Shown here one piece after another: positions 28,980-53,340 of a DNA stretch of 53,806 bases (position 1 is its first letter; each line of letters opens with the position of its first letter). Source of the stretch: Natrinema salsiterrestre (GTDB lineage: Archaea; Halobacteriota; Halobacteria; Halobacteriales; Natrialbaceae); contig NZ_JAMQOT010000016.1 of the NCBI RefSeq assembly GCF_029502005.1, positions 1 through 53,806 on the forward strand, in the 5' to 3' direction. The notes under the pieces were generated by a model. The model saw only the letters and a program-made list of their open reading frames with translations, searched no databases and had not been told where the DNA came from. A program made the translations under genes and the position numbers.

Positions 28980-29939
28980 ATGTATAATATACACACCACG
29001 GTTAGATCTCATGAGACATCAGACCAAACAGAATCAACTGAGTCAAGTATAGTATGTCCAGAATGTGATGGACAGATTACCAGCGATGTTGAACATGGTG
29101 AGACAACGTGTAGTGAATGCGGGCTTGTCGTTGATGAGAATATGATTGATCGTGGCCCTGAGTGGCGAGCGTTTGGCGATAGAGAGCGTGTAGAGCGTAG
29201 TCGAGTTGGGGCACCGACAACCGAACTTAGACACGATAATGGTCTCAGTACGATGATTGGTTGGCGCGACAAAGATACGCACGGAAATCACCTCTCTTCG
29301 GAAAAACGAAAACAGATTCAACGTCTTCGAACCTGGGATAAGCGGTTCGCTACGAAGAATGCACAGGAGCGTAATCTCAAGCATGCCTTTGGTGAGATTG
29401 ATCGAATGGCATCAGCACTTGGGATTCCAAAATCCTGTCGAGAAACTGCTGGTGTTATCTATCGGCGAGCCGTTGAACACGAATTATTACCAGGCCGATC
29501 GATTGAAGGAATGTCAACAGCTAGCTTGTATGCCGCTGCTCGCCAACATGGAACGCCACGTACACTGGTTGAGTTCGAGACAGTGAGCCGCGTCAAAAAG
29601 GTACGTATACAGCGGGCATATCGTTATCTGTCCCAAGAGCTCGGCTTACAACTTGAACCAGCCGATCCACTCCAGTATGTTTCGCAGTTTGCTTCGGCAC
29701 TTGATGTGAGTGGGGAAGCTGAACAACTTACACGGGAATTAGTTGAGACGGCGAAAGCAGAAGCCATACACAGCGGACAGAGTCCAGCAAGTATCGCCGC
29801 TGCAGCGCTTTATGCAGCTGCTCGACTATCGAATGAGCAGATTACACAAGATGAAGTGAGCGATGCCGCCCATGTGAGTTGTGTCACAATTCGAAATCAT
29901 TATACAGAAATACTTGACGTATTCGCTGAGCAGGATTGA
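28980..29939 (+). CDS. tfb: Transcription initiation factor IIB (TFB)
   Basis: General factor bridging TBP, promoter BRE and RNA polymerase; 319 aa, full length. N-terminal zinc ribbon with CPECDGQ and CSECGL, then the B-finger/linker region (DRGPEWRAFGDRERVERSRV). Two cyclin-fold repeats follow: ASALGIPKSCRETAGVIYRR with GRSIEGMSTASLYAAARQHG, and DVSGEAEQLTRELVETAKAE with GQSPASIAAAALYAAARLSN. The C-terminal HTH reads VSDAAHVSCVTIRNHYTEIL. Haloarchaea carry many TFBs, and accessory ones steer subsets of promoters, so this copy could favour genes of the element. Confidence 0.92.
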   Translation: MYNIHTTVRSHETSDQTESTESSIVCPECDGQITSDVEHGETTCSECGLVVDENMIDRGPEWRAFGDRERVERSRVGAPTTELRHDNGLSTMIGWRDKDTHGNHLSSEKRKQIQRLRTWDKRFATKNAQERNLKHAFGEIDRMASALGIPKSCRETAGVIYRRAVEHELLPGRSIEGMSTASLYAAARQHGTPRTLVEFETVSRVKKVRIQRAYRYLSQELGLQLEPADPLQYVSQFASALDVSGEAEQLTRELVETAKAEAIHSGQSPASIAAAALYAAARLSNEQITQDEVSDAAHVSCVTIRNHYTEILDVFAEQD

Positions 29940-34524: not shown

Positions 34525-34806
34525 ATGGTGAAACGAACCACCACTACGACTATCTCGGTTATGCCCGCCGACGCCTTGTTCCTCAGTTGGGCGACCGGTA
34601 TCAACGCATCGGGGCTATTCCGCGAGGCACTCGCCGAACAGATGGCGTACCGTGACATCGAGCGGGACAGGCTCGTTGCACTTCTCGAGGAAGCGCTCCG
34701 CGACGACGATCGTGACCTCGACGACCTGATCGAACAGACCTCGTGCTTCGAGGACCTCGAAAACCTTCTCGACACACCAAGCGTCAACTCAGTTTCCCAT
34801 GAGTAA
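34525..34806 (+). CDS. Probable ribbon-helix-helix regulator of the T4SS-like operon
   Basis: 93 aa from ATG 34525. A β-strand-like TTTTTISVMP is followed by helices ending GINASGLFREALAEQMAYRD, the pattern of small RHH DNA-binding proteins, then an acidic helical tail (LVALLEEALRDDDRDLDDLI). Its stop overlaps the next start (ATGAGTAA). A small DNA-binding protein here could autoregulate the operon. Confidence 0.6.
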   Translation: MVKRTTTTTISVMPADALFLSWATGINASGLFREALAEQMAYRDIERDRLVALLEEALRDDDRDLDDLIEQTSCFEDLENLLDTPSVNSVSHE

Positions 34807-35284
34807 CCGTTCATCCTCCACGGCAACTGAATCGTCTAGTGAACACCCTGCTACCAACGAAAAGTCCCCGACATCTCGTCAAACGAGACCGCGAGTGCAG
34901 TTGCTTTTCACCTCTGTTCCACCACAGCTTGTCTCACTCGCAATTGGACTCCTCTTGTTAATTGTTGCAGTCGGTCCAGCGACCGCTCAAAGCGATGTCG
35001 GAGACGTTTACTGCGGCACCGGTGTCGAGACTGGTATCGGTATTGTTTTCGGCGCTGTTGCTGGTCTCGGGCTCCCTGCAACTGGTCTCTATGTTGGCCG
35101 AGCTGGCCTCTCGTACATGCGTGCTGGTGGAAATCCTGAAAAGAAGAACCAAGCCAAAGAGAAGCTCGTAATGTCGGGTATCGGATTCGGCATCATCGTC
35201 CTTGCCCTCATTTCACCGGAACTTATCGACAAAGTCGGTAGTCAGATGGGATTCGGCTTCTCTGACTGTGTGAAACCGTTCTAA
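34799..35284 (+). CDS. VirB2-like pilin candidate, two TM segments
   Basis: 161 aa. A charged Ser/Thr-rich start is followed by a signal-like helix (LVSLAIGLLLLIVAVGPATA, with AxA-type end) and a mature part. The mature part has two hydrophobic helices, GIGIVFGAVAGLGLPATGLY and LVMSGIGFGIIVLALISPEL, separated by a basic loop (GGNPEKKNQAKEK). Two Cys (YCGTG and FSDCVKPF) could pair. The size and topology resemble VirB2/TraA-type pilins, but sequence identity was not tested. It is followed by surface and channel genes. Confidence 0.6.
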   Translation: MSNRSSSTATESSSEHPATNEKSPTSRQTRPRVQLLFTSVPPQLVSLAIGLLLLIVAVGPATAQSDVGDVYCGTGVETGIGIVFGAVAGLGLPATGLYVGRAGLSYMRAGGNPEKKNQAKEKLVMSGIGFGIIVLALISPELIDKVGSQMGFGFSDCVKPF

Positions 35285-37924: not shown

Positions 37925-39133
37925 ATGGGATGGCTTCAAAACGAAGTTGAGACTGCAATTGAGAACGTCATCGAGGATTTCACCGATGCGCTTCTCGGCC
38001 TTGTCAATGACATTTATGAAGCGATCTTAGGTCCAATCGTCGGTGTTCCAACCCCCAAATCAGATTCGGGGTATATGGTTGTCGGAACCCCGGACAATGC
38101 GCCATGGGAGAGTCTGTATCAGGACGTATACCTCTCATACATCATGCCGCTGGCGATCATGCTGTCGGTTATCGCCTTTGCGTTTGTTGGACTCCGGGCA
38201 GGTTCGATGAGTGAGTACCGACGAAAACAGCTCCTGCGACGACTTGGTCTCGTATTTATGGGGACTTTTGTTTGGTTTCCACTTGTATCGATTCCGTTAC
38301 AGTTCATCGACGCAGTAGGTATGACGATTGCCCCAATCGACGAGATGTCGGCAGGACTCGGTGGCCTCATCCAATCCTCGCTTGGGGGCGTGTTCACCAT
38401 CCTTGCGATGGTCGTCATATCGAACTTCTTCTTAGTTATCGCAGGGTTTGTCGTCGCTCTCCGATGGATTGCACTCTGCGTCTTGACGCCGATCATGCCG
38501 CTACTAGGCGTCCTCTGGTCGATGGAAGTCTGGCCGTTTAGTCCTGCGGCAAACATGGCACGCCGAGCTTCAGGGATCTATCCAGGCTTAGTGCTCGCTG
38601 GGATTCCGCCAGCTATTCTCTTCCGAATCGGCTGGGAGGTTGGCGGTCTCGAAACATCTGTTAAGGGCCTCTTTTCGTTGTTCATCGGATTAACGCTGAT
38701 TCCTGCAGCGATTATCACGATGATCATGACGGTGTACTGGAGCAGCCCGGCAATACGGACCGTCGCACAGAAGGGCGTCTCGGCAACGAATCCTACAGCA
38801 GCCGCATCCGGGGCTGCGAAGGCAAAACGTACTTCTGGAAAGGCTGTCCGGGGGGCCCGAAACGTCCATCGAGGATATGCGAACAATCAGGTTGGCGCAG
38901 TCACGAAGAGTGGCCAGACGACGCTCGGGGGTGGCAACTCGAAAGCCTACCAGCTCGGATCATCAGCCCGCTCGACGAAGGCTCACGCTGGTCGGTACAA
39001 TAATCTTCGGAAGTCGAAGACGGGCCGTATGCGAGACAAAGCCGCCGATGACGCTCGTAAAGCCACACAGAAGACATCGACTCGAGCAAAGCGCGGGCTC
39101 AAGAACACGAAACAGAAGGTCTCACGGTGGTAA
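37925..39133 (+). CDS. VirB6/TrbL-like multi-TM channel protein
   Basis: 402 aa. An amphipathic N-terminus (NEVETAIENVIEDFTDALLG) is followed by about six TM helices between residues 75 and 285, including VISNFFLVIAGFVVALRWIA and GVLWSMEVWPFSPAANMARR. The Lys/Arg/Ser-rich tail of about 110 residues contains AKAKRTSGKAVRGARNVHRG. Topology and position, just before the VirB4-like ATPase, match VirB6/TrbL/TraG-N proteins. The basic tail could contact DNA. Confidence 0.75.
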   Translation: MGWLQNEVETAIENVIEDFTDALLGLVNDIYEAILGPIVGVPTPKSDSGYMVVGTPDNAPWESLYQDVYLSYIMPLAIMLSVIAFAFVGLRAGSMSEYRRKQLLRRLGLVFMGTFVWFPLVSIPLQFIDAVGMTIAPIDEMSAGLGGLIQSSLGGVFTILAMVVISNFFLVIAGFVVALRWIALCVLTPIMPLLGVLWSMEVWPFSPAANMARRASGIYPGLVLAGIPPAILFRIGWEVGGLETSVKGLFSLFIGLTLIPAAIITMIMTVYWSSPAIRTVAQKGVSATNPTAAASGAAKAKRTSGKAVRGARNVHRGYANNQVGAVTKSGQTTLGGGNSKAYQLGSSARSTKAHAGRYNNLRKSKTGRMRDKAADDARKATQKTSTRAKRGLKNTKQKVSRW

Positions 39134-39139
39134 TTTCGT

Positions 39140-42100
39140 ATGAGTACGAATACAGCTGATAGCGAGTATAGTACGAGAAAGATCCATCAATCACTGGGCG
39201 GCACTACGGCGTTCTTTCGAGGGTACACGATCGGCGAACTCATGCTGTTTCTCTCAGTGGCGTTCGTCACTGTCATCGCAGCGACGTTCGTCCCTGCTGC
39301 ACTGACGATCCCGGTACTGGGATTCGGAATCATGCTCACGATCCTCCTGTTCTTGCTCCATAAGGTGAAGCCCAGATACCTCTGGCTCACCGAGTGGCTC
39401 GCTGCCCGCTTCGGCTGGGCGATCCAGAACAAGGAGTATGCCCACGGTGGTGAGGACAACAGCGAGGTTCGGTATCTGACTCGCTTACAACGGGTGTACC
39501 CCCACGCTGTCGAACGAACGGATGGTGCACTCGTCGGAGCGATGCAAGTCGAGCCAGCGAACATGGCCCTCGAGGACGACGATGCATGGGCGAAGGCTGT
39601 CCAGTCGCTTTCTGAGTTCGTTAACTCGACTGTGGACTTCCCAGTGAAGATCTATATCACCAGCCGAGAGGTCGACGATGACGATGTCGTCCGTGCACAC
39701 CAAGACCGACTCGGTGACGCTGATGTTCGGTCACGGCCGGTCTTGAAGCGGCTTCTCGAAAAATACGTCACCGCGAATACGACCGAAAGCGGAGACATCG
39801 ACTCAGAGACGACAACGATTCGCGAGTACTACCTCATCACTGCAGTGAACGATGACGATGTCGAACAATTCGATGAGACGGGTGACAGCGTCCTCGCCTA
39901 TCTCGCAGAGATGCCTATGGTAGGTCGATTCTTCGACCGGTTCCAGACCGATGAGCTAACTGACCCTGAGCGTGAGCGACTCAAAGCAGAGCAACTCGAG
40001 TCACGACTCACACAGCTTCGACGCGGCGGCTCGTCGCTCTACCAGTGTTCAGTTGGCCCGGTTGACGCATACGACCTTGCTCGGATCACGAAGGAGTACT
40101 GGTCGTGTCAGTCCGAGGAGTACGCTGATATCACGGATACACTGGGTACGTTCCCAGTCGTCGCCCACGGGATTAGCGATGGTGTTCCAGCAACGCCCGA
40201 TCCCGATGACGTCCTCGATGCAATGGACGAACAGACCAGTACGTCGGAATCAGCCTCGGACGATCGTACTGAAGAGAATATCGACGAGGGTCTCTCGATT
40301 CCATCCGGCGATTGGTTGCCAGATACGTCGACGATGCACCAGTCGGTTATCGCCCCGACGACGGTCGATTGGGAGACGACCTACGCCGTGATCAACGACG
40401 AGACGTACGTCCGTACGTTCTGGATCGAACAGTTCCCCGAGGAACCCTCGGATGGCCTCCTCGAGCGTCTATTGCTCGAGACCGACCTTCAGACGGATAT
40501 CAGCATCCACCTCGACCCGTTCGACAGCCAGTCGGCCCAAGACATGATGGCGGACTGGATCTCGGATTTGAAGATCAATCAGCACGACTCGAACAGCCTC
40601 CAATCCGAGGATCTTCAGGACGATATCGATCAGGCGAAATACATGCGGTCGCTCGTTCGTGCGAACAAAGCGTCGTTCTACCGCGGTGGCGTGTTCATTC
40701 GCCTCGCCGCTGACAGCGAGCAAGCGCTCGACAATCAGACGACTCGCTTGCGGTCGATCGTCAAGGATGCCCCGGCGAACTGTACGCTCAAGGTCGCGAG
40801 CCGGTGGCAAGAACGTGGCCTCGCAACGGTGTCACCGCTCGGGACGAACGAACTCGGTCGCGATCGGATGTCCACACTGACGAATCAGGCGATCGGCGCG
40901 ATGTTCCCGTTCTCGTCGAACTACCAGATGATGGACGACGGTATCGAGTACGGCTATCACGGCCACAACGGTTCTCCCATCCGAATCAACCCGTGGGAAC
41001 TCGAGACCGGGCACAGCGAACTCGTCGTCGGGATGCCGGGTGCTGGGAAAACGTTCGGTGATATCATGCGCCACCTGCGGATGATGAAGCGGCGCAACGA
41101 CACGATGCTCGTCCTCGTCGATCCAGTCGGCGGCTTCCGTGGTATCGCGGATGCTTTGAACGCGAAGACGATCACCGTCGGGGGCGACACGAAACTGAAC
41201 CCGCTCGAGATCCGAGAGACGCCACGGCACGTCCTCAAGTCCAACGATGGTATCTCACCTCTCTCGGCGAAGAAAGACGAGGTCTACGCCATTCTCGAGA
41301 ACTTCCTCGACGCTCGTGATATCGAACTCGGTGCCGAGACGGGTGTCCTCTCGTACGTCATTGACGAGGCCTACCGACAAGCAGGGATCGTCGAGGATGA
41401 TGTCTCGACGCATACCTCGAAGAACTCACCGACGATGCAGGACGTCCATCGGATTCTCTGTGATATCGCCGAGAATCCAGATGAGCACAATATTGCGGCA
41501 TCCGAATCCGCTCGCGAGCGTGCCGCACAATATGCAGACGAACTTGCAATCGCGTTTCAGCCCTTCCGAGAGGGCGGTGCCTACGAAAATCTCTCACACC
41601 GCTCGGAGATCAATATCCTCGAGGGCGACAACAAGGTCGTCTACATCGATCTCGGGCAGATCGAGGGCAGCGCATCAGGAATCGACCGCCAGACGTTCCT
41701 GATGCAACTCTTGCTCTCGACGATCTATCAGCAGGCGAAGAACACCCAACGGAACGTCGAACTCGCGATCGACGAAGCGCACTACCTCTTCGAGGACCAG
41801 GCGAACCTTGATTTCCTCGAGACGGCATTCCGTCACCAGCGCCACGCCGGCCTTCGAATGGTTCTCCTCTCGCAGACTGCCCAGGAGTTCTATGAGACCG
41901 AGCAGGCCGAGAAGATCATCGGGATGTGTCCGATCAAGGTCTTTCACAAATTGCCCGACCTAGGCGACGAGACAGCCGACAAAATCGGCCTCACAGAGGA
42001 ACAACGTCGGTACGTTCGACGGGCTGATGCAGGGAAGGAAGACCTCGGATACAGTCAATCGCTTGTTCGCGTCGAAGAACATGGAACGTATCCGCTGCAT

Positions 42101-42442
42101 CTCGTCGCCGACGACTTCGAGAAGCGCGTCATCAACTACGACCCAGAGGACCAGGCCTTCATCGAGCAGGCAATTCGTGAAGAGCCAGCGGAGTTGCTCG
42201 CCTTCGAAGAGTTTGTCGAGAACGAAGCCCAGCGCAACGCGCTTGCAACGCGTCTCGATCTCAGCGCAGACGCGGCCGGTCGGCTTCTTGAGGTAAATCT
42301 CACGAAAGAGGAGGTTCTCGATGCGCTCGTCAAGTATTCCCTCGAGACAGACAGTGAGAAGTCGGCTGTCCGGCCTGATGGTGGAGAATCAGGAGAGTCA
42401 GTTACTGCAGAGGAGACGACTGAAACTACGTGTGATACCTAA
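39140..42442 (+). CDS. VirB4-like ATPase with fused VirB3-like N-terminus
   Basis: Energises the transfer or pilus apparatus; 1100 aa. Residues 1-90 carry two close hydrophobic helices (GELMLFLSVAFVTVIAATFV and LTIPVLGFGIMLTILLFLLH) resembling VirB3/PrgI. The central VirB4 N-domain runs through SLSEFVNSTVDFPVKIYITS and QTTRLRSIVKDAPANCTLKV. The C-terminal motor has Walker A GMPGAGKT (about 631-638), Walker B VELAIDEAHYLF (Asp/Glu 878-879), and an LRMVLLSQTAQEF sensor region. The next gene begins four bases after its stop. Confidence 0.85.
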   Translation: MSTNTADSEYSTRKIHQSLGGTTAFFRGYTIGELMLFLSVAFVTVIAATFVPAALTIPVLGFGIMLTILLFLLHKVKPRYLWLTEWLAARFGWAIQNKEYAHGGEDNSEVRYLTRLQRVYPHAVERTDGALVGAMQVEPANMALEDDDAWAKAVQSLSEFVNSTVDFPVKIYITSREVDDDDVVRAHQDRLGDADVRSRPVLKRLLEKYVTANTTESGDIDSETTTIREYYLITAVNDDDVEQFDETGDSVLAYLAEMPMVGRFFDRFQTDELTDPERERLKAEQLESRLTQLRRGGSSLYQCSVGPVDAYDLARITKEYWSCQSEEYADITDTLGTFPVVAHGISDGVPATPDPDDVLDAMDEQTSTSESASDDRTEENIDEGLSIPSGDWLPDTSTMHQSVIAPTTVDWETTYAVINDETYVRTFWIEQFPEEPSDGLLERLLLETDLQTDISIHLDPFDSQSAQDMMADWISDLKINQHDSNSLQSEDLQDDIDQAKYMRSLVRANKASFYRGGVFIRLAADSEQALDNQTTRLRSIVKDAPANCTLKVASRWQERGLATVSPLGTNELGRDRMSTLTNQAIGAMFPFSSNYQMMDDGIEYGYHGHNGSPIRINPWELETGHSELVVGMPGAGKTFGDIMRHLRMMKRRNDTMLVLVDPVGGFRGIADALNAKTITVGGDTKLNPLEIRETPRHVLKSNDGISPLSAKKDEVYAILENFLDARDIELGAETGVLSYVIDEAYRQAGIVEDDVSTHTSKNSPTMQDVHRILCDIAENPDEHNIAASESARERAAQYADELAIAFQPFREGGAYENLSHRSEINILEGDNKVVYIDLGQIEGSASGIDRQTFLMQLLLSTIYQQAKNTQRNVELAIDEAHYLFEDQANLDFLETAFRHQRHAGLRMVLLSQTAQEFYETEQAEKIIGMCPIKVFHKLPDLGDETADKIGLTEEQRRYVRRADAGKEDLGYSQSLVRVEEHGTYPLHLVADDFEKRVINYDPEDQAFIEQAIREEPAELLAFEEFVENEAQRNALATRLDLSADAAGRLLEVNLTKEEVLDALVKYSLETDSEKSAVRPDGGESGESVTAEETTETTCDT

Positions 42443-42446
42443 GACC

Positions 42447-43634
42447 ATGACTAGGCTCAAGCGAATCAAGACGATCTTGGATTCGTCGCCACAGTACGAG
42501 GCGACACAACTCGACTTCGGTAAACACGATTCGTTCGTCCAACAGCAAGCGGATACGCCAGGTACGCTGCTGCGGATCCGCCCCTACAAAGAGAACAACG
42601 GTATAGCGGACGGGGCTGGGGTTCTCCAGTCAGTCCACGATGTGACGACGAACTTCCGCGGAAAGAATACGAGCGACCACCACTCGTTTGAGGTCTGGTT
42701 CGACAAAGGGAAGATCAAGTTCTACATGCACGCTGCCACTGAGGCAGCTGTCGACAAGTTCCGTCGTCGTGTTGGGAACAACTACGCCAACAGCGAGGTT
42801 TTCCCGGTTGAAGAGGGCTATGCGTTCCCCATTATCAACTCTGACGAGTACGTCGCTGGTGCGTGGCTCGAGATGGAGAAGATCCCCTACTACCCGATTC
42901 GCCATCACAATAGCGAGGGGTTCGAGACGGATCCCTACGGCGAGGTTACGAGCGAGATGCTGTCGCTCGATGAGAGTACCGTCGTTACGCAGGTCGTCTT
43001 CCGGCCTGCAAAACAGTCGTGGACCGACGGCGACCGGTTCAAACATAATAGCGTCGACGAACTCGCTCACGCGCTTCGGCAAGGGACGTCCGTCGGCTGG
43101 CTCAACCCTCGTACGCGACCGCCAAGCGAGAAGGACAAACAGGCCGCGAAAACCATCGAACAGCAGCGTGGTCAGCAGGCGTTCCACGTGAACATTCGCG
43201 TCCTCGCTGCCTCGAGCGAACAAGACGAAGCCGAGGCCCGTGCTCGTGGCGTCGCGGGAATGTTCAGGAAGTACTACAACGCGATCACTGAGCAGGGCCT
43301 CGACGACAAGCCCGTCTGGCATCGCCGAGAGAGCAAACGCGCAACGCGGCTTCGGCAGTTTGTCGAGCGAATGCGTGACCGCGAGTGGATCAATCAGCAC
43401 ATGATTATGACCGTCGACGAACTTGCCGGTGTCGCACACATCCCCAATTCGGAGATTGAGACACCAAAGATTGACTGGCGATATACACAGCGTGGTGATC
43501 GGTTGCCAGCAGATGGAAGCCGATACGCAGCTGACGAATCACCGGTAGATGGGCAGACCCCTAGCATTCCGAACGAGACAGCAGTCAGCTTTGAAGAGCC
43601 CACTCGAGAGCAGGAGGGATTCGATGGTGCTTGA
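42447..43634 (+). CDS. T4SS-operon protein, DUF8128-like
   Basis: 395 aa from ATG 42447 (the open frame extends upstream to 42321 but overlaps the virB4-like gene). Soluble, mixed α/β: TILDSSPQYEATQLDFGKHD, then VWFDKGKIKFYMHAATEAAV, QAFHVNIRVLAASSEQDEAE. The tail is acidic. Similar proteins precede the VirD4-like gene in haloarchaeal conjugation-type clusters (DUF8128, from memory). Overlaps the next start by 11 bases. It may be an adaptor of the coupling protein. Confidence 0.7.
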   Translation: MTRLKRIKTILDSSPQYEATQLDFGKHDSFVQQQADTPGTLLRIRPYKENNGIADGAGVLQSVHDVTTNFRGKNTSDHHSFEVWFDKGKIKFYMHAATEAAVDKFRRRVGNNYANSEVFPVEEGYAFPIINSDEYVAGAWLEMEKIPYYPIRHHNSEGFETDPYGEVTSEMLSLDESTVVTQVVFRPAKQSWTDGDRFKHNSVDELAHALRQGTSVGWLNPRTRPPSEKDKQAAKTIEQQRGQQAFHVNIRVLAASSEQDEAEARARGVAGMFRKYYNAITEQGLDDKPVWHRRESKRATRLRQFVERMRDREWINQHMIMTVDELAGVAHIPNSEIETPKIDWRYTQRGDRLPADGSRYAADESPVDGQTPSIPNETAVSFEEPTREQEGFDGA

Positions 43635-46600
43635 TCGCTTCTTCGGACCCGGCAACGAGGCTTCCAGCGACGACCGACATGAGGAGCGAGTTGCTAGAGG
43701 CGATGAACAGACAGAAGAGAACACGATCTCAGAATCGTCCACTCATCAGCAACCCGATCTCGATGACGGTGACCAATATAATATCGTGGAACAGAACACG
43801 ACTCGTATTGGTGGGAAGCCGGTTATCACGGAAACAGTCGACGAGGGAACAGTTGCAGGCTCGTTCGTTCGAGAAATGTTCGAAGCTGGGATGTACAACG
43901 CACCAGCCCCACTCTGGATTGGCTACTCAGAGGATCCCCAGACTGGTTTTCGTGAGGCGCCGCTCCGTTTCGAGTCGCTCTTTCGCCACACCTGGATCGC
44001 TGGAACAACTGGCTACGGAAAGACAACCGAACTCCTGAATATGATGGTTCAGTGGGCCTACTCCGGCTATGGCTTCACGTACTTCGACCCCAAGGGTCGT
44101 GACTCTCGAGAGTTGCTCCGGATGCTCCCCAAACATCGTCTCAAGGACGTGGTTTGGATCGAACCTGGCTCGACCACCCACGAGAAGACGATCGGGATGA
44201 ACTTCCTCGAGGTGCCCGAGTGTGAGACTACCGAGGAACTCGAGAACGAGATCGAAAACCGAGTTGAGAACCTGAAAGCGGTCTTCGATACTTCCGATTA
44301 CTGGGGTATCAACATGGAGGCGATCACCGAATCGATGGCGCGAGCGATGATGAAATCGGAGAAGCCGTTCTCGATTATCGATATGTACTTCACCTTACTC
44401 AACGCCGAGCGGCGCGAAGACTTCGCACTCGACGTTGAGGACCCCTATATCAGAGAGTTCTGCCTCGAGATCGCGAACATGGAAGAGGAGACGATCCGCC
44501 CGCTCCTGAAACGGATCAAGTCGTGGGTCGAGAATTCGGTGATTCGTCGGATCATTGCCCATCGTGAGAGTACGATCGATTTCCGAGACATCATTGATAA
44601 CGACCGAATTGTCATTGTCCGAACGCCCGTCGAGAACACAGACATCAAGAAGATGGTCACGCTCGGCGTAATGCGCAATCTCTGGAGTGCTATCCAGCGG
44701 CGGTCGTACGAGATAGATACGACGCCGGATCCCTACTTCGTCCTCTGTGATGAGTTCGATGATATCGCCAGCGATAATCTCGATATCGAGTCAATGTTGG
44801 CTCGAGCCCGGTCGATGCGGCTCTCCGTGACCCTTGCCTCACAGTATCCCTCGCAGTTTGACGAGGATACGTTGAAAGCGATGCAGAACAACTGCGACAA
44901 CCTCCTCACGTTCTCGGTCAACGACAGTGATGACGCTAAGTTATTGATGAAACGGTTCCGCGACTACACAGCAGAAGACCTCATCACGACCGACCAGTTC
45001 AAAGTGTGGACGCGGCTTCCCCTCTCTGGAGGACGATACTCCGAACCCGTCTTGATTCGGACGTTTCCGCCGTATCCGCCTCTCCGTGGCACAGACGACG
45101 TTGATGATGTTATCGAACAGAGCTTAGAGCGCTATGGTACTAAGCCGTTGACTGACGCGGAGATCCTCCAGAACCTCATCTACAGCGACGCCAATGAAGC
45201 CGCCAATCCGACGAAGATACTGGATGAGACCATGGCAGAAGCGCTACGTACAGTCCAGATCCGAGAAGGTGTGCGGGCGGAAAACGGCTGGGTCGACGTC
45301 ACGGCTGTTGACGAGGAACTCATGGCCCGTCTTGAGAAGACCGAGCCTGAGATTGATTATGCATACGAAGACCTGCCGGACGTGCGTGATACCTCGCAGT
45401 TGATCGAGGTCGACCTGCAGAACGACGAGATCGTCGCTCGCCTCACTGACAAGGGTGAAGAGCTAGTCCGGCCCAAGACGGGCACTGTCGGCTCAGCTGG
45501 TGGAACTAGCCACGATGCAGTGCTCCTGGATGCTGAGGTATCGCTCACTGAATGCGGGTTTAGTGTCGAGATCCTCGAGCAAGATGGGAGCGAGCAACCT
45601 GACGCAGTTGCCACGCACCCAGATCGCGATGTGGTGTTTAACATCGAGGCTGAGACAACAACGCCCGACCGACCGGCGAAGGTTCTGCAGAATCTCAAAC
45701 GCGCTCACGAGGAAGACCGCATTCCGATCTTCGTTGTTCGACCTGGAGAATCTGAGACACAGGTGGCATCACGAGTCGAGAATATCCTTTCAAAGCCACT
45801 GCACGAACGATCGGATGGCACTGAGCAGTTCTACAACTGTGATGAGATTGTGACCTTCGGTGGTGGCGCGACAGCTCATGGTGGCGTCACTGCGGTTCGT
45901 CCACAGACGACGGATGCAAATCGGACTGTCTGGGTACGTGACAACGGAGAGCGTGTGCTGTCAGATGGTGAGACAGAATTTACCCGTGTGCCGGATGATG
46001 GTCCGACCTCGAAAGATGATGTGCCGGCCTACTACAGTTATGATCATGAGTCCGGTCAGTACACCGTCCACCAACCCGGTGAGACACTGACTTACAACTC
46101 GAAAAGCGAGTTCGAGACAGAGTGGACGCCGATCAAACGGCCGTTCCTTCCCGACGTTGACCTGCCAGACGCGAACTATTCGCGTGAGAGCTATCTCATC
46201 CTGATACACCCGACAGACGGGAGTCCCCTGCTCTTCCAGCAGGGCGACACGTACGAGCTGTCTGAATCGCCGGATAACGAGGAGCTATGGCCAGATGCTT
46301 CTTCTGCTGAACACTCCAAGGCTGTGGAGCCGTCCCAGCCGGCAGAATCATGCTCCACAGGAGAGCAATCTGTACAGATCGAACCAGATAGTGATGGCAT
46401 CGAGGCGTTCGCAGCGATGTACATCAGAGAGGCAGATGGTGTGCAGATACCGAAGGAAGAATTGTTTCAGGCGTACTCGAGATGGACTGATCAGCAGGAC
46501 ATTGATGGGACAAACGCGAGCTGGTTCGGTCGGAAGCTTGCGAACGTCGTTGAGTATGAAGATGACCGTATCAGAGACAGCGATAATCTGGTAACAGTCT

Positions 46601-46647
46601 ACACTGGAATTGACCTGACCAGCGATGGATCAAAGCTCCTTGAATGA
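43624..46647 (+). CDS. VirD4/TraG-like coupling ATPase with long C-terminal extension
   Basis: 1007 aa from ATG 43624. The N-terminal FtsK/HerA-like motor has Walker A AGTTGYGKTT (about 126-135) and Walker B VLCDEFDDIAS (Asp/Glu about 376-377). SVTLASQYPSQFDEDTLKAM and NCDNLLTFSVNDSDDAKLLM are further family motifs. There is no clear N-terminal TM anchor. After a small helical part (TDAEILQNLIYSDANEAANP) come about 450 extra residues. They include a segment with QPDAVA (about 658-663), NIEAETTT (about 673-680) and KVLQNLKRAHEED, reminiscent of PD-(D/E)xK-type folds, then a β-rich region and a wHTH-like end. It would deliver DNA to the apparatus. Confidence 0.85.
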   Translation: MVLDRFFGPGNEASSDDRHEERVARGDEQTEENTISESSTHQQPDLDDGDQYNIVEQNTTRIGGKPVITETVDEGTVAGSFVREMFEAGMYNAPAPLWIGYSEDPQTGFREAPLRFESLFRHTWIAGTTGYGKTTELLNMMVQWAYSGYGFTYFDPKGRDSRELLRMLPKHRLKDVVWIEPGSTTHEKTIGMNFLEVPECETTEELENEIENRVENLKAVFDTSDYWGINMEAITESMARAMMKSEKPFSIIDMYFTLLNAERREDFALDVEDPYIREFCLEIANMEEETIRPLLKRIKSWVENSVIRRIIAHRESTIDFRDIIDNDRIVIVRTPVENTDIKKMVTLGVMRNLWSAIQRRSYEIDTTPDPYFVLCDEFDDIASDNLDIESMLARARSMRLSVTLASQYPSQFDEDTLKAMQNNCDNLLTFSVNDSDDAKLLMKRFRDYTAEDLITTDQFKVWTRLPLSGGRYSEPVLIRTFPPYPPLRGTDDVDDVIEQSLERYGTKPLTDAEILQNLIYSDANEAANPTKILDETMAEALRTVQIREGVRAENGWVDVTAVDEELMARLEKTEPEIDYAYEDLPDVRDTSQLIEVDLQNDEIVARLTDKGEELVRPKTGTVGSAGGTSHDAVLLDAEVSLTECGFSVEILEQDGSEQPDAVATHPDRDVVFNIEAETTTPDRPAKVLQNLKRAHEEDRIPIFVVRPGESETQVASRVENILSKPLHERSDGTEQFYNCDEIVTFGGGATAHGGVTAVRPQTTDANRTVWVRDNGERVLSDGETEFTRVPDDGPTSKDDVPAYYSYDHESGQYTVHQPGETLTYNSKSEFETEWTPIKRPFLPDVDLPDANYSRESYLILIHPTDGSPLLFQQGDTYELSESPDNEELWPDASSAEHSKAVEPSQPAESCSTGEQSVQIEPDSDGIEAFAAMYIREADGVQIPKEELFQAYSRWTDQQDIDGTNASWFGRKLANVVEYEDDRIRDSDNLVTVYTGIDLTSDGSKLLE

Positions 46648-47003
46648 GATTCATATCATAAACATGTCTATATTTAAAGAGAATAAAACATTGGATACCT
46701 CTGCACTAGCACTAGTATTCCGATCTCTGCTCATCAGGCCAGTCACACGCCAATTTCCTGTTTACACCACTATTTGTTCAGGGCAAATTAATTATTCAGG
46801 TCAAAGGTCTGAAAAATGTTCAGGGCAAAACCGCAGGACGGAAGCGATGTTCATGGCAAGTCGAGGGTCAAAACCAACTAGTATAGAAGGGGTAGCCCCC
46901 GTTGGACAGGGTAGCGAACAGCCCACTGGATTTCGGTGTGTTTGTCAGCACCGTGATAGTGGATGCACGATGTCCAACTGGACGCATATTACGAGGTCGA
47001 TCG
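46648..47003. other. Gap between transfer operon and primase-like gene
   Basis: 356 bases without a recognised gene. It begins AT-rich and contains the iteron-like repeats listed next. It is the best candidate in the window for a replication origin or a regulated promoter. Confidence 0.45.
46776..46873 (+). repeat. Iteron-like direct repeats upstream of the primase-like gene
   Basis: GTTCAGGGCAAA (46776-46787), ATTCAGGTCAAA (46794-46805), GTTCAGGGCAAA (46818-46829) and GTTCATGGCAAG (46849-46860), with a weaker GAGGGTCAAAA near 46863. All run in the same direction with 18-31 base spacing, next to AT-rich sequence. They may bind a replication initiator or a regulator. Confidence 0.6.
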
Positions 47004-48266
47004 ATGATGTCTGAGAGTGCGGTCTCGGTATTCCCCGAAGAACTACGTGAGCGCGACCAGTGGGTCTGCTGGAAAGAAGAGCCTCGAGATGGGAAGACGA
47101 CAAAGATACCCGTGACGCCAGGCAGTGGTGCGTTCGCGTCGTCAACGGATCCCGAAACATGGGCGTCGTTCAAGACAGCACTCGAGTACGCTGACACAGG
47201 GAACACCGATGGCATTGGCTTCGTCTTTACCGACGACGATCCCATCGTCGGTGTGGATCTGGATGACTGTCGAGATCCCGCAAGCGACGACGTCGACGGC
47301 ATAGCGCTGGACATCATCGAGCGACTCGATTCCTATACGGAGATCTCTCCCTCGGGTACTGGGTTCCACGTACTCATTGAGGGAGAACTCCCAGATGGGC
47401 GGAACCGCCGTGGCAGTATCGAACTGTACGACACTGCCCGGTTTTTCACCGTGACCGGCGACCGCCTCGAGGACACGCCACCTCGCGTTGCACGCCGGCA
47501 GGACGCACTAGTAGCAATCCATCGTGAGTACGTCCAAGACTCTGACCCACGTTCAGAGCACGAATCTGGGAACCATCGCAATAGGGACGAGACCGAAACG
47601 ACAGGCAGTGCAGCTCATACTGGCGTTGATCTCAAGGATCAGGAGCTGCTCGAGCGAGCGCAGAACGCATCGAACGGTGAGAAGTTCGAACGGTTGTGGC
47701 GTGGTTCGACTGCTGGTTACGAGAGTCAGTCAGAGGCGGACATGGCGCTGTGTTGTTTGCTGGCGTTCTGGACTGGTGGTGACCAGCAGCAGATAGATCG
47801 GCTCTTCCGCCAATCAGGGCTGTTCCGAAACAAGTGGGATGAGGTCCACTACGCAGACGGCTCTACGTATGGCGAGAAGACCATCGAACGAGCGATTGCG
47901 AGTTCCTCCGAGTTCTACGACCCGGACACTCGAGATACGTCAACTGAATCTATTCCAAGAACAAGCAAGTCGTCCACCACTGCTAGCCGTGACGAATTGG
48001 AGCAGAATCAGAATCGTGCGTATCTAGTCGAGAAGAATCGACTGTTGACTGTCCGTGTCGACGAACTTGAGGCCACGCTCGAACAGAAAGATGAGCGTAT
48101 TGATCGCCTCGAGGCAACGATCGAGGATCTCAAAACCGAACTTGCGGAGCGTAACCGAGAGATCAAGCAGACTCGAGAAGGACAAGCCGAGACGATGTCC
48201 GACTGTGACACCGCTTCAGAGACATCCTCTCTGTGGGGACGATTATTTGGAGGTAGTTCCAAGTAA
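47004..48266 (+). CDS. Primase/polymerase-like protein (NrS-1 polymerase type) with coiled-coil tail
   Basis: 420 aa from ATG 47004 (ATG 47007 also; the frame opens at 46902 with TTG). The N-terminal archaeo-eukaryotic primase-like domain has ELRERDQWVCWKEEPRDGKT, GFVFTDDDPIVGVDLDDCRD with the acidic catalytic pair, SYTEISPSGTGFHVLIEG, and SIELYDTARFFTVTG. A helical-bundle part (SEADMALCCLLAFWTGGDQQ, QIDRLFRQSGLFRNKWDEVH) follows, as in NrS-1-type replication proteins. A heptad coiled coil (VDELEATLEQKDERIDRLEA) and LWGRLFGGSSK end it. No helicase motor is visible. Likely a replication initiator or primase of the element. Confidence 0.75.
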   Translation: MMSESAVSVFPEELRERDQWVCWKEEPRDGKTTKIPVTPGSGAFASSTDPETWASFKTALEYADTGNTDGIGFVFTDDDPIVGVDLDDCRDPASDDVDGIALDIIERLDSYTEISPSGTGFHVLIEGELPDGRNRRGSIELYDTARFFTVTGDRLEDTPPRVARRQDALVAIHREYVQDSDPRSEHESGNHRNRDETETTGSAAHTGVDLKDQELLERAQNASNGEKFERLWRGSTAGYESQSEADMALCCLLAFWTGGDQQQIDRLFRQSGLFRNKWDEVHYADGSTYGEKTIERAIASSSEFYDPDTRDTSTESIPRTSKSSTTASRDELEQNQNRAYLVEKNRLLTVRVDELEATLEQKDERIDRLEATIEDLKTELAERNREIKQTREGQAETMSDCDTASETSSLWGRLFGGSSK

Positions 48267-52195: not shown

Positions 52196-52401
52196 GAAGC
52201 AGATCGCTGATGTCGCAGGAACCTCGCCGAATATTCTTCGCAGCCGTCGAGACGAACTACTCTGGATCGAAGTCTGTATTTCTAGCAGATAACCAGTGAG
52301 GGAAACGCGATGAGATCTACTCAAACGCTGACTTGAGTTCGTTTTTTCTCCCCCTGAGGGGTGAGGGCGTTCTCCGAAGTGAGCGTCCATCGTCGAGAAC
52401 A

Positions 52402-53340
52402 ATGACTACGAGCGACTGTAGACCGGTGTCCTTCGATGATTCGGACACCAGACGTGACGAGATGCACAGTACAATGGAAACCTGGGTCGACGACCTCGTC
52501 GACGAGGTTGATGACGCAGTCTCGAGTAAGCAGTTCCAGGAGTGGCTCGATGTCCAGAGTCACTTCCACGACTACTCCTACCGAAATAAGCTGCTGATCA
52601 CTCGTCAGTGTCCGAACGCGACTCGCGTTTCCGGCTATCGAACCTGGCAAAACGAGTTCGATCGGCATGTGAAAGAAGGCGAGAGTGCAATCTGGATCTG
52701 GGCACCGATCATCGCAAAGCAGTGCCCCGAGTGCGAAAACTCGCCGTCGTACCACGATCGAAGCGACTGTGAGTACGACGAGACGTCACCAGAAGAGTGG
52801 TCGAAAGGACTCATCGGCTTTCGGCCAGCGCCAGTCTTCGACATTTCTCAGACAGAGGGAGAGCCACTGCCCGAACTCGAGACCGAGGCGACCGGGGAGG
52901 CCGACGAGCTGGTGCCAGCGCTCCTCGAAGGGGCTTCGATGCTTGAAGTGGGAGTCGAGGTCGTTTCTCCAGCGGAGTGGCCTCACGGCGATGCCAGAGG
53001 TGTGTGTCAGTACCGTTCTCCTGCGGAGCGACCACTAATCGAGGTCTGCGATCGTGAGAACAGCGCCGACCTTGCCGTAACGACCGTCCACGAGTACGCT
53101 CACGCACTCTTGCACGGTGATGTCGATGACGAGACCGAACGCTCGAAACGCGAACTCGAGGCGGAAGCCGTCGGCTACATCGTCGGTCGGTATTTCGGGC
53201 TGGACACGAGTGGGTCGGCGTTCTACCTCGCTGCATGGGAGTGCGAAGAGTCGGAGGCCATCCTCGATCGACTCGAGCGGATCAGTTCGACCGCTGCGGA
53301 GATTATCGATGTCGTTGACGAGGTGATCACAGTTGAGTGA
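52402..53340 (+). CDS. ArdC-like antirestriction/ImmA-IrrE-type metalloprotease
   Basis: 312 aa from ATG 52402 (the frame is open from 52333). The N-terminal ssDNA-binding ArdC-like domain includes WVDDLVDEVDDAVSSKQFQE, HFHDYSYRNKLLITRQCPNA, and VSGYRTWQNEFDR. A Cys-rich stretch (QCPECENSPSYHDRSDCEYD) may bind zinc. The C-terminal protease domain has VHEYAHALLHG, HExxH at about 230-234, and the third ligand region ERSKRELEAEAVGYIVGRYF. ArdC proteins protect incoming DNA during conjugation, so its place on a transfer element fits. A decayed copy lies at 25529. The next ORF overlaps its end. Confidence 0.85.
   Translation: MTTSDCRPVSFDDSDTRRDEMHSTMETWVDDLVDEVDDAVSSKQFQEWLDVQSHFHDYSYRNKLLITRQCPNATRVSGYRTWQNEFDRHVKEGESAIWIWAPIIAKQCPECENSPSYHDRSDCEYDETSPEEWSKGLIGFRPAPVFDISQTEGEPLPELETEATGEADELVPALLEGASMLEVGVEVVSPAEWPHGDARGVCQYRSPAERPLIEVCDRENSADLAVTTVHEYAHALLHGDVDDETERSKRELEAEAVGYIVGRYFGLDTSGSAFYLAAWECEESEAILDRLERISSTAAEIIDVVDEVITVE

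Follow-up and report, generated by a model that had tools for sequence, protein, structure and literature searches.

The window analyzed here, a 53,806-nt stretch of the Natrinema salsiterrestre contig NZ_JAMQOT010000016.1, carries a transfer operon with VirB2-, VirB6-, VirB3/VirB4- and VirD4-like genes, which had been recognized from the letters alone and which Pfam and NCBIfam matches confirm (Table 1). The VirD4-like gene encodes a coupling ATPase whose C-terminal extension beyond the ATPase measures about 470 aa, close to the roughly 450 extra residues counted in the sequence-only reading. Two structural models predict, in our view almost certainly correctly, that this extension contains a domain of the PD-(D/E)XK fold preceded by a winged helix; the fold and its fusion to the ATPase are both well supported.

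Table 1. Features of the coupling-ATPase locus, with positions in the window
Feature	Coordinates	Strand	Basis or remark
VirD4/TraG-like coupling ATPase with C-terminal extension	43624..46647	+	1007 aa
Walker A, residues 127-135 (GTTGYGKTT)	44002..44028	+	sequence
Walker B, residues 371-377 (YFVLCDE)	44734..44754	+	sequence
Winged-helix domain, residues 536-617	45229..45474	+	AlphaFold2 model
PD-(D/E)XK-fold core, residues about 628-722 (a-b-b-b-a-b-a)	45505..45789	+	AlphaFold2 secondary structure
P659-D660, first catalytic-type acid, start of strand 2	45598..45603	+	
E675-A676-E677, ExE replacing (D/E)xK, strand 3	45646..45654	+	
P684...K686...N690...A694, helix after the ExE strand	45673..45705	+	
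C-terminal region aligning to Pox_D5 (primase-helicase) winged helix	46396..46623	+	
Intergenic element: iterons (TGTTCAGGGCAAA-type), 16-nt core, GGGG-TAG-CCCC hairpin	46774..46905	.	sequence, alignment
Type IV secretion system (T4SS) pilin (VirB2-like)	34799..35284	+	PF18895 3.8e-9; NF045849 2.2e-9
TrbL/VirB6-like membrane protein	37925..39133	+	PF19590 5.1e-13
VirB3/VirB4-like ATPase	39140..42442	+	NF045971 3.4e-51
Upstream partner gene of the coupling ATPase	42321..43634	+	start uncertain
Primase-polymerase-like protein with NrS-1 helix-bundle domain	47004..48266	+	PF22763 5.7e-32

The open reading frame (ORF) of the coupling ATPase starts with the ATG at 43624, and a further in-frame ATG is present at 43549. 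The Pfam families TraG-D_C (1.1e-5), TrwB_AAD_bind (2.6e-5) and T4SS-DNA_transf (1.7e-4) all match inside residues 113-453 and exceed the curated cut-offs. In an alignment of 76 sequences, the Walker A residues T129, G130, G132 and K133 are 96% conserved, and the Walker B residues D376 and E377 are 99% conserved. An ATPase domain with both Walker motifs, encoded alongside VirB4 and channel genes, marks the protein as a type IV coupling protein (T4CP), and this gene context points to its role in transfer. No N-terminal transmembrane anchor is obvious by eye, no transmembrane prediction having been run. Full-length relatives with 66-83% identity are carried by haloarchaeal plasmids. Some long relatives finish in a winged helix of the Pox_D5 type, which is as a rule found attached to primase-helicases; one family member (L043) matches PF03288 (Pox_D5) at 8.5e-8 in a region that a MAFFT alignment of families A and C places colinear with the C-terminal part of the window protein, and that part of the window protein itself gave no Pfam match. 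As well, the same genome possesses a second coupling ATPase of the long type (L002, G000:C9), which shares 38% identity over the common region and keeps the motifs intact.

Searches of Pfam, NCBIfam and the PDB with the sequence of the C-terminal domain returned no meaningful match, so its fold is seen only through structure. A first AlphaFold2 model, of window residues 536-772 with 50 homologues, gave the winged helix a predicted local distance difference test score (pLDDT) of mostly 80-94 and the core one of mostly 73-89. The helices (H) and strands (E) of the core are H93-108, E112-115, E126-129, E136-141, H149-161, E165-169 and H176-187. With VIA-align, residues 1-82 of this model resemble the winged helices of ORC1/Cdc6, MukE and TubR (Z 7.6-8.9), while residues 93-184 resemble the Hjc structures 1gef (Z 8.3), 2wj0 (7.9) and 1ob8 (7.5) as well as VRR_NUC 4qbn (Z 8.2) and FAN1 9eoa (Z 7.4). 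The top Foldseek match of the first model is VRR_NUC (probability 0.97, E 0.076). VIA ranks winged-helix folds over nuclease folds for this two-domain model, a ranking that is absent from the second AlphaFold2 model, which covers only the core of a member with 46% identity (L088). The L088 model repeats the topology of the first, and its top Foldseek match is Hjc 2eo0 (E 2.4e-3, probability 1.00), along with RecU, VRR_NUC and Hjc. Hjc 1gef and VRR_NUC 4qbn score Z 8.9 and 8.8 against it, and nearly every one of its 50 VIA rows names a nuclease, or a protein resembling one, that has the PD-(D/E)XK fold, including TnsA, EndoMS/NucS, tRNA-splicing endonuclease and several defence nucleases. The a-b-b-b-a-b core of the PD-(D/E)XK superfamily is thus present in both predicted models, as the sequence-only reading had suspected, and no unrelated fold was matched with confidence.

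The motif residues lie where that reading had placed them, namely at P659-D660, N673-I-E675-A-E677-T-T-T680 and K686-VLQN690-LKRA694. The conserved motif can be written PD...(I/V)E-x-E, in which a glutamate stands where a lysine is usual. P659, D660 and E675 are found in all 108 aligned sequences and E677 in 107 of them; Q653 (104/108), P684 (106/108) and N690 (103/108) are nearly as constant, and position 686 is K or Q in 104/108. The pattern is not a product of chance, as the motif residues are also invariant in the 76-sequence alignment. The lone exception at E677 is an alanine in a fragmentary 113-aa ORF (L060:9989-10327). Between the two glutamates stands a variable residue (V, A, I, S or P), and therefore the invariance does not come from overall conservation. 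In the L088 model, a conserved D48 is located just ahead of strand 2, and E63 and E65 are located on strand 3, at sites that correspond to Asp33, Glu46 and Lys48 of Pyrococcus Hjc. We accordingly class the domain as a variant of the PD-(D/E)XK fold rather than a classical member. The sequence-only reading had noted that the lysine is not obvious and had suggested that the domain may be a DNA-binding derivative. D...ExE is the catalytic set of BamHI (Asp94, Glu111, Glu113), and since the invariant residues here are of this type, loss of the lysine does not by itself make the domain inactive. As far as an alignment can tell, the conserved D...ExE argues for an active, variant PD-(D/E)XK site over a dead one, and we consider it probable that the domain is catalytically active.

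Among haloarchaea, a tblastn search of PLSDB gave 111 records, all of them haloarchaeal among the matches listed. The relatives comprise a close, full-length group A, a shorter group B without the last winged helix, and a group C of about 1440-1540 aa, in which an N-terminal extension is approximately as large as the gene that stands separately upstream in group A. When a profile was built from residues about 555-738, it matched 187 of 391 Halobacteria genomes, representing 62 of 86 genera. Further genomes match in the wider phylum (families f13 and f15), where the proteins examined are TrwB/T4SS-DNA_transf ATPases; these genomes appear to be Archaeoglobaceae-like, and in two of the loci (L130, L131) a VirB4-like ATPase is encoded directly upstream of the fused ATPase. 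Scans of viral contigs found no relatives. A haloarchaeal 772-aa protein (L132:5584-7902) carries a nuclease-like domain (PD...E-P-E), and no ATPase domain was detected in it.

A compact 587-aa relative from an Archaeoglobaceae-like genome was used as the query for a further tblastn search of plasmids. Its best match is the 103-kb plasmid pT33-3 of Thermococcus nautili 33-3, followed by the Sulfolobales plasmids pMGB1, pAH1, pYN01, pTC, pARN3, pARN4, pNOB8, pKEF9 and pING1. The alignment spans the C-terminal domain in pT33-3, pMGB1, pAH1, pYN01, pTC, pARN3 and pARN4, whereas the listed matches to bacterial T4CPs extend no further than the ATPase (query residue 365 at most). Read directly, the plasmid VirD4-like proteins show a winged helix and then Q...PD-x-(V/I)-A-x-P...A-(V/I)-A-(V/I)-E-I-E-S-x-N-E...H-x-E-Q-(V/I)-x-x-N-x-x-K, with the same motif order and position in the protein (pT33-3, pNOB8, pKEF9, pING1, pARN3/4, pAH1 and pTC). 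A merged profile of the haloarchaeal and Archaeoglobaceae-like domains, built without these plasmid proteins and tested on a set that numbered about 1,180 ORFs and reversed ORFs together, recovered most Sulfolobales proteins at E values of 9e-5 to 0.06, against 0.65 for the best reversed decoy, and hhalign joined the haloarchaeal and Sulfolobales profiles at E 1.6e-4. Homology of the Sulfolobales and Thermococcus domains with the haloarchaeal domain is likely rather than proven. We are strongly inclined to regard the nuclease-fold domain as a family-wide feature of archaeal coupling ATPases.

As for the neighbouring genes, the most constant companion of the coupling ATPase is the primase-polymerase. 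Of 80 haloarchaeal loci, 75 have a homologue of it, which begins 282-451 nt past the ATPase stop in nearly all of them. The VirB3/VirB4-like ATPase is present in 62 of these 80 loci, and in the long-type relatives the primase-polymerase gene is better conserved than VirB4. The upstream partner occurs as a separate-gene homologue in 25/80 loci. The long relatives carry a comparable region on the ATPase itself, as an N-terminal extension that matches the partner in size and is partly similar to it in sequence. Upstream of the transfer operon, at 28980-29939, there is a plasmid-borne TFIIB homologue with counterparts in 16/80 related loci, and TFIIB genes have been reported near T4SS genes in thaumarchaeal elements (PMC6563490). 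At 52333-53340, weak Pfam matches indicate an ArdC-like N-terminal domain and an M78-type metallopeptidase. ArdC proteins accompany conjugation in bacteria.

The region between the coupling-ATPase and primase-polymerase genes possesses an element with iterons, a hairpin and the 16-nt core AAAACCAACTAGTATA at 46870-46885. Across loci, the iterons are lineage-specific, the core is near-invariant, and the G/C hairpin is found in many. The exact core gave 33 matches in 194 genomes and none in the reversed control, and the domain coordinates put the majority of copies about 1.1 kb past the nuclease domain. We considered the element as evidence of an origin of transfer (oriT) and did not accept it, because 9 of the 33 copies are found apart from any intact coupling gene; of these nine, most adjoin the primase-polymerase gene and two adjoin neither. 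A replication origin or a promoter fits equally well for the same reason, and the element is a possible oriT, replication origin or promoter.

Archaeal conjugative elements have been described as lacking recognizable relaxases, with a mechanism that may differ, and papers from 2011 to 2025 treat the start of their transfer as unsolved (PMC3158045, PMC6563490, PMC9905601, PMC12857230). HerA-NurA was proposed as a source of single strands (PMC9905601). The absence of a relaxase from the window, noted in the sequence-only reading, extends to the whole 4.79-Mb genome for PF03432, PF08751, PF03389, PF02486 and PF07514, none of which matched while positive controls responded (PF01076 was not searched), and no always-linked relaxase was found outside the window. 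PF13814 gave no match in the genome either, though no control genome responded to it. Kinship with PF13814, the replication-relaxation proteins to which the domain had been likened, was considered and found no support by sequence; its model does not match the domain members. Small ORFs matching PF03432 (L136, L138, L137 and L139) are present in two other haloarchaeal genomes, G060 and G016, so that some haloarchaea do carry relaxase-like genes. In the literature, which was covered incompletely, we found no earlier description of a nuclease domain in archaeal VirD4 proteins, and priority is not established.

Because of its fold, its motif conservation, its occurrence on plasmids and the lack of a detected relaxase, the coupling ATPase can credibly be proposed as the source of the missing nicking or cutting activity. 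The explanation we favour, on what we judge an even balance, is that the coupling ATPase of archaeal conjugation unites a pump with a nuclease-fold domain and starts transfer. The winged helix or helices would bind a transfer site on the mobile element, and the PD-(D/E)XE domain would then introduce a metal-dependent nick or cut at the bound site, acting on one strand or on both. The ring-shaped ATPase would pump the freed strand or end into the VirB4/VirB6 channel, and a separate HUH relaxase would not be needed. The neighbouring primase-polymerase could turn transferred single-stranded DNA into duplex by second-strand priming. That the nuclease-fold domain itself supplies the initiating nick or cut of transfer is put forward tentatively. 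The widest form of the proposal is speculative: conjugation might proceed without a relaxase, independently of HUH chemistry, in Halobacteria, Archaeoglobi, Thermococci and Sulfolobales alike, since the PD-(D/E)XE domain of the coupling ATPase would cut the transfer origin, possibly the iteron-plus-AAAACCAACTAGTATA element in haloarchaea, and feed the channel.

Several points weigh against the proposal that the coupling ATPase starts transfer. The classical lysine two residues past the strand-3 acid is absent, its place being taken by E677. The L088 model has a mean pLDDT of 65, and structural Z values of 8-9 are moderate; we find them persuasive because the agreement extends over both models and over many separate members of a single superfamily. 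With the merged profile, pARN4 (0.55) is not separated from the decoys and pT33-3 falls below the reporting limit, though the motif is intact by eye in both, and the hhalign probability between haloarchaeal and Sulfolobales profiles is just 38-50%. PD-(D/E)XK enzymes form no covalent phosphotyrosine link with DNA, and the functions of relaxases beyond cleavage, as pilot protein and in strand re-closure, are therefore unexplained.

One alternative is a catalytically inactive domain of the same fold, which together with the winged helices would just recognize the transferred DNA or dock a separate relaxase. Non-catalytic proteins of the PD-(D/E)XK fold exist, winged helices flank the domain, and the replacement of the catalytic lysine by glutamate runs throughout the family. 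However, pure docking is not expected to hold three acids invariant at an overall identity of about 30% or less, E677 is lost solely in a decayed fragment, and ExE is catalytic in BamHI, so we consider an inactive domain unlikely. The nuclease might also be active without being the initiator, trimming or resecting ends, or ending transfer by cutting where a pumped unit ends, in the manner of HerA-NurA or a phage terminase motor. Archaeal pumps of this superfamily do work with nucleases (HerA-NurA; PMC9905601), and the nearest structural neighbours, Hjc, VRR_NUC and FAN1, are junction or flap nucleases; but nothing else in the operon was recognized as an initiator nickase and even small conjugative plasmids already carry the domain, which makes this role rather improbable. 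Degradation of rival or recipient DNA, unrelated to the initiation of transfer, is very improbable, for although the structural neighbours include the defence nucleases DdmD, HamA and SPARDA, the domain is fused to a coupling ATPase, persists on conjugative plasmids of several archaeal groups and has transfer and primase genes as its conserved neighbourhood.

The finding that a nuclease-fold domain is fused to the coupling ATPase narrows the question of how archaeal conjugation starts to three residues within a single domain of a single protein, which can be tested by point mutation, and a mutational transfer assay has been published for pT33-3 (as described in PMC12857230). If the proposal is true, it would represent a conjugation route with PD-(D/E)XK instead of HUH chemistry, and the annotation of archaeal mobile elements would change. 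PLSDB types pT33-3 and almost all of the haloarchaeal plasmids found here as non-mobilizable.

Compared with the bacterial T4CPs (VirD4/TraG/TrwB), the window protein shares the ATPase domain (PF10412, PF02534, PF12696) and the gene order beside VirB4 and VirB6. Unlike the bacterial matches listed, which finish with the ATPase, it has an added winged helix and PD-(D/E)XK-fold domain and no accompanying relaxase was detected. MOB/HUH relaxases and Replic_Relax proteins (PF13814) would fill the same role, that of initiating transfer; however, the fold differs from HUH, no member of the searched relaxase families was detected in the genome, and Replic_Relax does not match the domain members. BamHI-type endonucleases share the acidic D, E-x-E triad but are missing from every structure list, so that the likeness is one of motif alone. 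Hjc, VRR_NUC and FAN1 have in common with the domain the predicted a-b-b-b-a-b core, a D opening strand 2 and an E-x-x on strand 3 at equivalent places, whereas here the third residue is E and not K, no match exists at the sequence level, and a pump ATPase forms part of the same polypeptide. Finally, HerA-NurA likewise combines a pump of the FtsK/HerA superfamily with a nuclease in archaea, although its pump and nuclease are two separate proteins and the NurA fold is RNase H-like (PMC9905601).

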